This document shows positions 7,960 to 10,296 of a DNA stretch of 28,936 bases, piece by piece; within the stretch, counting starts at the first letter, position 1; the number at the start of each line of letters is the position of its first letter. The DNA comes from a virus. Under the pieces are notes generated by a model. It was given only the letters and a program-made list of their open reading frames with translations, ran no database searches and had not been told where the DNA came from. The position numbers and the translations under genes were made by a program. The stretch covers positions 1-28,936 of the IMG/VR virus record IMGVR_UViG_3300012349_000216; one strand, written 5' to 3'.

Positions 7960-8957
7960 TATTAGGAATTGACGAATTGAATACAGATGTTCCTTATGTA
8001 GGAACACTTGCAGAAAGTTTAATGAAAGCTCGAAAACCTCCTGTTGTAGAAGAACTTCCAGAAGCAAAGCTCTTAGGAAAGATAGTATCGGCTCCATTGG
8101 AATATGATCCTTCAGTACTTGTAGCTATTCCACGTTCAAAGAACCGTGATCAATATGGATTAACAAACGAGTCATTTGATGGAAATGATTACTGGCGTTG
8201 TTATGAGTGTTCTACAATAACTAAATATGGTATGCCTGTATATTTTATGATGACTATTCAATATAACTCAAATAGTCCTTTCATTGTAGAATCAAAATCT
8301 CTCAAATTATACCTTAATTCTTTCAATATGACTAAGCAAGATTTTGCAGAACCTAAACATTGCATTAACTCAATGGTTAATAGAGTACAATCTGACCTAG
8401 AAAAAATATTAGGGGTTAAACCTGAAGTAAGCACTTACGATAATATATCCAATGATTTTAGTAATTTTAAAGATCTTGAAATTATTGTTGATTATTCTTC
8501 AATAGTAAGTGAAGGATATAATGTAGACAAACATATTCTCTCTCCTTCCTATCTTCGTGAACACAAGACAATAACTTGGAAATTTGAAGGATTTAGATCT
8601 AATTGTAAAATTACTAATCAACCTGATTATGCAAGTGTTTTCATATCAACTTATAATTGTGTGGATGGAATAGATCCTGTTTCTTTAGTGAAGTATCTTA
8701 CTTCCTTTCGAAATGAAAATCACTTTCATGAAGAATGTTGTGAGTTAATCTTTAAAGATTTAAATGAAGTATTCAAACCTGCTTCTTTATTTGTTACTTG
8801 TTCATATACACGAAGAGGTGGTATTGACATTTCTCCTTCTAGACAAACAAAAAAGAAGATAGATACTCTTAATAATTTTCAGAATATTTATTATGATGCA
8901 AAAGGTATAGTTAAGGAACAATTTGATGTCACACCTGCAAGGACTATATATCAGTGA
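7956..8957 (+). CDS. queF: NADPH-dependent 7-cyano-7-deazaguanine reductase (QueF, two-domain)
   Basis: A 333-residue QueF of the long, E. coli-like form, which reduces the nitrile of preQ0 to the aminomethyl of preQ1 using NADPH. Conserved segments are ESKSLKLYLNSFN (112-124, the NADPH-site region), SNCKITNQPD (215-224, Cys217 the thioimide nucleophile), FHEECCE (257-263) and YTRRGGIDISP (284-294). It is about 50 residues longer than E. coli QueF because of an N-terminal extension and an insert between the halves. Its presence predicts that the base put into DNA is preQ1 or a derivative of it, not preQ0. It has ATGA and GTGA overlaps with dpdA and queC. Confidence 0.95.
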   Translation: MILGIDELNTDVPYVGTLAESLMKARKPPVVEELPEAKLLGKIVSAPLEYDPSVLVAIPRSKNRDQYGLTNESFDGNDYWRCYECSTITKYGMPVYFMMTIQYNSNSPFIVESKSLKLYLNSFNMTKQDFAEPKHCINSMVNRVQSDLEKILGVKPEVSTYDNISNDFSNFKDLEIIVDYSSIVSEGYNVDKHILSPSYLREHKTITWKFEGFRSNCKITNQPDYASVFISTYNCVDGIDPVSLVKYLTSFRNENHFHEECCELIFKDLNEVFKPASLFVTCSYTRRGGIDISPSRQTKKKIDTLNNFQNIYYDAKGIVKEQFDVTPARTIYQ

Positions 8958-9670
8958 TTATTGATCTTCTTCCAGAAGCTAAAGGTGCCATTGTCATCCT
9001 TTCAGGTGGCTTAGATTCCACTATTGCTATGAGGTTAGCTATAGAAAAATACGGTAAAGAAAACGTATTTGCTTTGACATTTGATTATGGTCAGAAGCAA
9101 AAAGCAGAAATAAATTGTGCTTCCTGGAGCACAACATTATTAGGTGTAGGTCATAAAAAAATTGACGCCTCTTTCTTAGGAGATATTAGTCAAGGATTTT
9201 CGGCTAATGTTGATACAGGAATAGCTATGCCTACTATTGAAGATGTTCTTGGTGACCCAAGACCTGTTACATATGTTCCAAATCGTAATATGATTCTCCT
9301 TTCTATTGCAGCAGCATATGCTGAAACACAAAAGGTAGATGTAGTTATTTGTGGGTTACAACAAAACGACACTTATAATTATCATGATACAACACCTAGA
9401 TTCCTTGAAAAAATCAATGCAGTATTAAATGAAAATCGTATCATTCAGATAAAAGTAGTATCACCATTCATTAATAAGACAAAAACTGATGAAATTAAAA
9501 TTCTACTAGAGTTAGATGGAAATGTAGGACTTTTAAGACATACACTTACATGTTACAATCCTGATTGGGATGATAGATCATGCGGTCATTGTCCTTCTTG
9601 TTCAGAACGTCTTAAAGCATTTACTAATGTAGGTATTATAGATCCAGTGAGGTATGCATGTGCTCGATAA
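8954..9670 (+). CDS. queC: 7-cyano-7-deazaguanine synthase (QueC)
   Basis: A 238-residue ATP-pyrophosphatase-type enzyme converting CDG to preQ0 with ATP and ammonia. The PP-loop SGGLDS is at 17-22 and the zinc site at the C-terminus is Cys200, Cys210, Cys213 and Cys216 (CGHCPSC). YVPNRNMILLSIAAAYAE in the middle is also typical. The start is GTG at 8954, overlapping the queF stop; no better ATG exists near the PP-loop. The last 13 bases overlap the start of the amidotransferase gene, tying the two proteins together. Confidence 0.95.
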   Translation: MIIDLLPEAKGAIVILSGGLDSTIAMRLAIEKYGKENVFALTFDYGQKQKAEINCASWSTTLLGVGHKKIDASFLGDISQGFSANVDTGIAMPTIEDVLGDPRPVTYVPNRNMILLSIAAAYAETQKVDVVICGLQQNDTYNYHDTTPRFLEKINAVLNENRIIQIKVVSPFINKTKTDEIKILLELDGNVGLLRHTLTCYNPDWDDRSCGHCPSCSERLKAFTNVGIIDPVRYACAR

Positions 9671-10296
9671 TAGGATCCTTCTCTAAGGATAAACTCATAG
9701 AACTTTGTGAGCTTAATAAGTACCGCGGGACTTTCTCTCATAGTATCTCATATTATGATCCAGAACAACGTGATATCTTTTCTATAATGAGGAGATTTGG
9801 TGAAATTGATTATGATAATATAGTTGAAGAAAACCTTAAAGATGGAATGTATTGTGTTATTCATATGCAAGCCCCCACAGGAGAAGATAAGTCAGAAAGG
9901 CACATTCATCCTGCGGAGATCAATGGACATTATCTTTGGCATAATGGTATACTAAAAGATTCTACTATTCTTGCCCTTCATGAAGAATTTGATTATGACA
10001 CAAAATGGGATAGTAAACTCCTTCTCTGGAAGATGATTTGGGATAAAAAACCTGATGATATCGATGGATCATTTTCTTGCCTTCATTACATTCCTAATGG
10101 TGCTAGAGGTATGTATCTTTTTAGAAATTCACTAGCACCAATGTTTATTGATGATGATTTTAATATATCATCTACTAGGTTTGCTGAGAGTAGAAAAACT
10201 GAGGCAGGTGTTATATATGAATTTCATCCTGATCGTAAACAATTAATAGAAATAGCTCGTTTCGCTACAATGAACAACCCCTATGATATAGCATGA
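9658..10296 (+). CDS. Class II glutamine amidotransferase-like protein (QueC partner)
   Basis: A 212-residue stand-alone amidotransferase domain. It begins MCSIIGSF, so Cys2 would be the N-terminal nucleophile after Met removal. Later segments fit the Ntn glutaminase fold: KYRGTFSHS (about 22-30), HMQAPTGE (the usual His-x-Arg-x-Ala site), LWHNGIL (Asn-Gly pair) and GSFSCLHY. Such domains release ammonia from glutamine. In some archaea and phages a Gat domain is fused to QueC and the product is the amidine G+. Here it is separate but overlaps queC by 13 bp. Inference: it feeds ammonia to QueC or forms an amidine. The arginine of the usual motif appears to be Gln. Confidence 0.78.
   Translation: MCSIIGSFSKDKLIELCELNKYRGTFSHSISYYDPEQRDIFSIMRRFGEIDYDNIVEENLKDGMYCVIHMQAPTGEDKSERHIHPAEINGHYLWHNGILKDSTILALHEEFDYDTKWDSKLLLWKMIWDKKPDDIDGSFSCLHYIPNGARGMYLFRNSLAPMFIDDDFNISSTRFAESRKTEAGVIYEFHPDRKQLIEIARFATMNNPYDIA

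Follow-up and report, generated by a model that had tools for sequence, protein, structure and literature searches.

QueC produces preQ0 from 7-carboxy-7-deazaguanine (CDG) with ATP. Archaeal GMP synthetase acts on XMP and has a class I (PF00117) glutaminase, whose fold is unrelated to that of the glutaminases considered here. In its two-subunit form, as in the locus described below, a separate glutaminase gene adjoins a QueC-like ATP pyrophosphatase (PMC13329287). Closer still is Gat-QueC (phrog_10428), the G+ synthase of archaea and of phage 9g, in which the QueC domain is served by a class II glutaminase domain, as we propose for the pair described here; the fused protein of phage 9g gives dG+ (PMC6884629), an association that our first-pass annotation had given correctly. 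The pair analyzed here corresponds to Gat-QueC with its two parts in separate genes and, probably, another product; it is not a new category. We found no description of Gat as a QueC partner in the literature searched, which did not cover Cui et al. 2023 (NAR) or a 2024 MMBR review. A PF00310 match was noted for KVP40.0125 in a 2003 annotation, and the Gat relatives in phage records are annotated as 'hypothetical protein' or 'nucleophile aminohydrolase'.

The window, meaning the whole stretch of DNA that we analyzed, is a virus contig of 28.9 kb whose replication genes are T4-like (B-family polymerase, DnaB-type helicase, UvsX, clamp, and clamp loader). Its plus strand carries queD, queE, folE, dpdA2, queF, queC, and the gene for a 212-residue protein, Gat, in frames that mostly overlap (Table 1). 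The order FolE-DpdA2-QueF-QueC-Gat is that of the Schizotequatrovirus/KVP40 cluster, where Gat is just 28-31% identical to that of the window and where the loss of QueF (in phage nt-1) is accompanied by ArcS. We assign the transglycosylase to DpdA2 given its homology to nt-1 DpdA2 and its place inside a preQ0 cluster. The window QueF aligns to the V. cholerae-type QueF 3bp1 (E 9e-38) and keeps the catalytic Cys217, Asp224, and the NADPH motif ESKSLKLYLNSFN of the nitrile reductases; QueF-L is not known to have the catalytic Cys, the Asp, or the NADPH motif. The queC gene runs from a GTG start to a TAA stop, and the coordinates and reading frames first given for queC and gat hold, as does the 13-bp overlap of two separate frames (8954-9670 and 9658-10296).

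Table 1. Features of the deazaguanine gene cluster in the window.
Feature	Position	Strand	Evidence
QueD, 6-carboxy-tetrahydropterin synthase	2846..3298	+	PF01242 E 2e-20; phrog_2389 QueD-like
QueE radical SAM enzyme	3806..4636	+	phrog_2076 QueE-like E 1e-48
FolE, GTP cyclohydrolase I	5840..6571	+	PF01227 140 bits
DpdA2-type DNA guanine transglycosylase, 463 aa	6568..7959	+	phrog_10773 E 7e-84; tblastn against nt-1 DpdA2 E 2e-38
QueF, preQ0 nitrile reductase, bimodular, E. coli/Vibrio type	7956..8957	+	both Pfam domains (QueF_N, QueF) exceed the cut-off
QueC, 7-cyano-7-deazaguanine (preQ0) synthase, 238 aa	8954..9670	+	PF06508 182 bits, E 9e-54; TIGR00364 above cut-off
Gat, stand-alone class II (Ntn) glutamine amidotransferase-like protein, putative QueC partner, 212 aa	9658..10296	+	profile, AlphaFold2 fold, invariant residues
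queC/gat reading-frame overlap, 13 bp	9658..9670	+	frames also touch or overlap in 38 of the 56 relatives with QueC directly upstream

Several other genes lie in the window. Between queE and folE there is a NADAR-domain gene (4811-5236; PF08719 above the cut-off; an anti-phage NADAR family is matched weakly), and such a gene also adjoins the deazaguanine cluster in locus L069. A frame at 5233-5868, overlapping both the NADAR gene and folE, encodes a putative CxxCxxCC metal-binding protein (PF03692 just above the cut-off; phrog_16018) that also occurs in the clusters of L023, L024, L060, L069, L163, and L180 and is a possible cluster member. The protein at 25783-26733 has two similar internal copies (ELNTSTL...TLAKEKIAKKE) and no Pfam or PHROG match, and a large protein at 27073-28935, cut by the contig end, joins DUF6267 to a cytidylyltransferase-like domain.

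Searched singly against Pfam and NCBIfam, the window Gat matched no family; as a single sequence it matches just phrog_12378, a PHROG of unknown function. Searched against PDB sequences, a profile of 13 members of the Gat family finds GlmS (E 1.4e-5) and also PurF, and three Gat relatives match the Pfam families GATase_6 and GATase_7. An AlphaFold2 model of the window Gat, made from an alignment with 60 relatives (pLDDT 93.3, pTM 0.90), resembles PurF (Z 19.6) and the glutaminase domain of GlmS (Z 17.9) among known structures. We are confident in the predicted fold, that of a class II glutaminase.

The queC-gat arrangement recurs far too often for chance. Scanning virus contigs with Gat as the seed gave 297 relatives; of the 57 non-redundant loci that extend far enough upstream, 56 have a same-strand QueC directly upstream of Gat, and in the other one QueC lies at another place in the cluster. 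In a separate scan seeded with QueC, all 69 loci that extend far enough downstream contain Gat. In named phages, the records with this clade of QueC and the records with Gat are the same 51, and outside them the next best QueC drops to ~35% identity. Four Gat matches in bacterial genome assemblies lie on metagenome-assembled contigs, at least one of which carries a phage DNA polymerase. The pairing of QueC and Gat is obligate, a conserved unit in the loci seen. Among the ORFs of this Gat family we found none fused to QueC, and in a mirror-tree comparison the correlation of the Gat and QueC distance matrices (r 0.42) was not above that of Gat with QueF, FolE, or QueE.

The genes around the pair vary. 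A ~270-residue TGT-like protein stands in place of DpdA2 in 30 of the 51 QueC-Gat loci (L091:3946-4779, L044:5907-6728, and L049:6212-7021, for example), a different type of DpdA working with the same pair. A gene for a COG1738 (QPTR/YhhQ-type) queuosine-precursor transporter is found in the phage clusters of L005 (6476-7105) and 16 other loci, often directly 3' of gat where QueF is missing (L007, L008, L009, L019, L065). In KVP40-type phages, QueD is ~311 residues long, with an N-terminal extension of ~170 residues (L002:2242-3177, L003:2389-3321).

Both the pair and the phage Gat-QueC fusions lie in deazaguanine clusters with a DpdA. The fusion is a single polypeptide with Gat first; it keeps an Arg at the position of GlmS Arg73, has the motifs YGSRAE and YPDN, lacks QueF nearby, goes with DpdA1, and yields G+. 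In contrast, the pair consists of two genes with QueC first, as seen in the separate frames of the window, has Gln at the Arg73 position and the motifs YGQKQ and Y-W/H-D-T, usually has QueF, and goes with DpdA2 or the ~270-residue DpdA. Paired QueC forms its own clade on the QueC tree, apart from fused QueC, and the paired and fused Gat domains are only remotely related (hhalign E 1e-4). Given the reversed gene order, the separate QueC clades, and the remote Gat domains, we rejected fission of a Gat-QueC fusion; judged by these sequences, queC and gat look like a parallel pairing, and the description of Gat as split from QueC in the first-pass annotation is misleading.

Gat goes with QueC, independent of QueF, and not with the final base. 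In the 51 QueC-Gat loci with at least 2.5 kb upstream, the last-step enzyme beside the pair is QueF in 39, ArcS in two, and neither in ten, and the QueC tree implies six or more switches in QueF presence, with Gat retained. Because Gat follows QueC with QueF, ArcS, or neither, the proposal that it may only feed ammonia to QueC, already raised in the first pass, is the best-supported reading. Searches of whole records found ArcS and no QueF in nt-1, and QueF and no ArcS in 6E35.1a, pf16, and 2.275; in the QueF-less records, a search for QueF elsewhere gave weak matches only, none over the Pfam cut-off. We rejected ArcS as a general partner of the pair, as it is confined to nt-1 and the near-identical L088/L089.

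Published base measurements bear on the product. In Vibrio phage 6E351A, which we equate with record 6E35.1a (MW824377), 15% of dG is present as a nucleoside of 295 Da that fits dPreQ1, and the main text of that report makes no mention of dG+ (PMC12028318). The 6E35.1a record is syntenic with the window (folE-dpdA2-queF-queC-gat), and its Gat is 28.7% identical to the window Gat. Vibrio phage nt-1, which has gat and ArcS (DUF5591) but no QueF, contains dPreQ0 (0.11% of G), less dADG, and a trace of dG+, with no dPreQ1 (PMC6884629). Setting 6E351A against nt-1, dPreQ1 is expected where QueF joins the pair. QueF next door does argue against G+ as the product, as first suggested. The window QueF is canonical, and the window phage most likely carries dPreQ1, not G+, in its DNA. 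In Pseudomonas phage pf16, whose cluster has the gene order of the window, the DNA resists digestion by four restriction enzymes whose sites contain G/C (PMC5587285).

These data also bear on an alternative in which Gat and QueC make the amidine base G+ from preQ0 while QueF competes, so that G+ and preQ1 are both made. The fused protein of phage 9g does give dG+, and nt-1, which bears this Gat, has dG+ at 44 per million nucleotides, but this is only 0.02% of G, and its authors ascribe it to the ArcS that nt-1 encodes (PMC6884629). The idea of two different modified bases, put forward in the first-pass annotation, finds no support in 6E35.1a, where QueF and this Gat occur together with dPreQ1 and dG+ goes unmentioned in the main text (PMC12028318). 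Moreover, QueF is found beside fused Gat-QueC in 0 of 10 phage loci compared to 39 of 51 beside the pair (Fisher p 7e-6), a comparison whose fused sample, seeded from phage 9g, covers a single lineage. Matches to PF14489 in the fused records are weak, six of them just above the cut-off, and the match in phage 9g sits within the GTP cyclohydrolase gene, a related T-fold. We consider the joint production of G+ and preQ1 unlikely.

The active site of Gat bears on the nitrogen donor. Its frame opens with ATGTGC (Met-Cys), and all 64 aligned relatives share the Met-Cys N-terminus expected of a class II nucleophile. Gat aligns to GlmS without gaps across the active site, matching Cys2 to Cys1, Thr74 to Thr76, His84 to His86, Asn96-Gly97 to the oxyanion pair Asn98-Gly99, and Asp118 to Asp123 of the glutamine site, and these six residues are invariant among the 64 aligned Gat sequences. 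Gat shares with the glutaminase domains of GlmS and PurF the fold (Z 18-20), the N-terminal Cys nucleophile, the Asn-Gly oxyanion pair, and the Asp, but it is a free-standing protein of 212 residues with no synthase domain. It also has Gln71, in 64 of 64 sequences, at the position of GlmS Arg73, the residue that binds the carboxylate of glutamine; fused Gat-QueC proteins retain the Arg. It is chiefly this substitution that leaves the donor, presumed to be glutamine, in doubt, and we therefore call the protein amidotransferase-like. Gat could be an amidohydrolase or amidotransferase that uses another donor and still delivers ammonia to QueC, but with all the remaining GlmS active-site positions invariant, we think this very unlikely. 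We give hardly any credence to a role for Gat other than ammonia supply, whether structural, regulatory, or as a substrate that QueC modifies at the N-terminus, for example, as in the Cap9/QatC defence systems: although QueC-family enzymes can join deazaguanine to a protein encoded next door (PMC13279940, PMC13329287), the known substrates begin with glycine on a flexible N-terminus (PMC13279940), the N-terminal Cys of Gat lies within a strand of the glutaminase fold in the AlphaFold2 model, every catalytic position but one is kept, and the cluster supplies what a base-making pathway requires (FolE, QueD, QueE, QueF, and DpdA2).

The sequence of QueC offers a further clue (residue numbers are those of E. 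coli QueC). The window clade has in common with canonical QueC from E. coli and B. subtilis the SGGxDS and VPxRN motifs (SGGLDS and VPNRN in the window), Tyr35, Tyr131, Asp133, Tyr189, and the four Zn cysteines, with nine residues rather than eight between the first two Cys in the window protein. In contrast, His39 and Cys134 are replaced in this clade, which is accompanied by Gat in every locus seen. In place of the motifs YxQxHxxE and YPDC (PMC13329287), the window QueC has YGQKQKAE and YHDT, retaining Tyr35, Gln37, Glu42, Tyr131, and Asp133 but changing His39 to Gln and Cys134 to Thr. QueC proteins without Gat have His39 in 8/9 cases and Cys134 in 9/9; the fused lineage has Ala39 and Asn134 (10/10), and the paired lineage has Gln39 (59/59) and Thr134 (55/59). 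For Cap9, an enzyme that links CDG to a protein amine with no need for ammonia, the motif is reported as Y/FxQ(x)5E, without this His (PMC13329287). An exception is the QueC of halovirus HCTV-5, which has Thr39, with no Gat found within 900 bp. The loss of His39 represents two or three independent events, not dozens. This distribution suggests that His39 may serve the use of free ammonium by QueC. It is also possible, though we hold this tentatively and find it rather doubtful, that paired QueC has lost the use of free ammonia and become an obligate two-subunit enzyme dependent on glutamine or another donor; the absence of His39 from Cap9 and from both lineages partnered with Gat would then mark the ammonium-handling residue of QueC.

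The explanation that we favor, and regard as probable, is that Gat and QueC form a two-subunit, glutamine-dependent preQ0 synthase that feeds QueF and DpdA2, leaving the window phage with dPreQ1, not G+. Gat would hydrolyze glutamine with its N-terminal cysteine, and the ammonia would pass to QueC within a physical complex. QueC would use this ammonia and ATP to turn CDG into preQ0. QueF, whose active-site residues are in place, would then reduce preQ0 to preQ1, and DpdA2, judging from its homology, would exchange preQ1 for guanine in phage DNA. The gain from Gat, we speculate, may be independence of free ammonium in the cell. Several observations count against this explanation. QueC of other organisms runs on free ammonia. 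Gln71 replaces the Arg, no QueC fusion turned up for this Gat family, the mirror-tree correlation of Gat is no higher with QueC than with the other cluster genes compared, and HCTV-5 has Thr39 with no Gat within 900 bp; in addition, the base measurement on 6E35.1a comes from another phage, whose Gat is 28.7% identical.

The pair is common: it occurs in some 300 virus contigs and in 51 records of named phages, and across these phrog_12378, listed as unknown, gains a proposed function. The presence of an amidotransferase by itself is no predictor of G+ in DNA; base predictions need correcting accordingly, in that where the pair is present, QueF or ArcS decides. Finally, the loss of His39 goes with an ammonia source that is delivered or absent, making the handling of ammonia by QueC directly testable.
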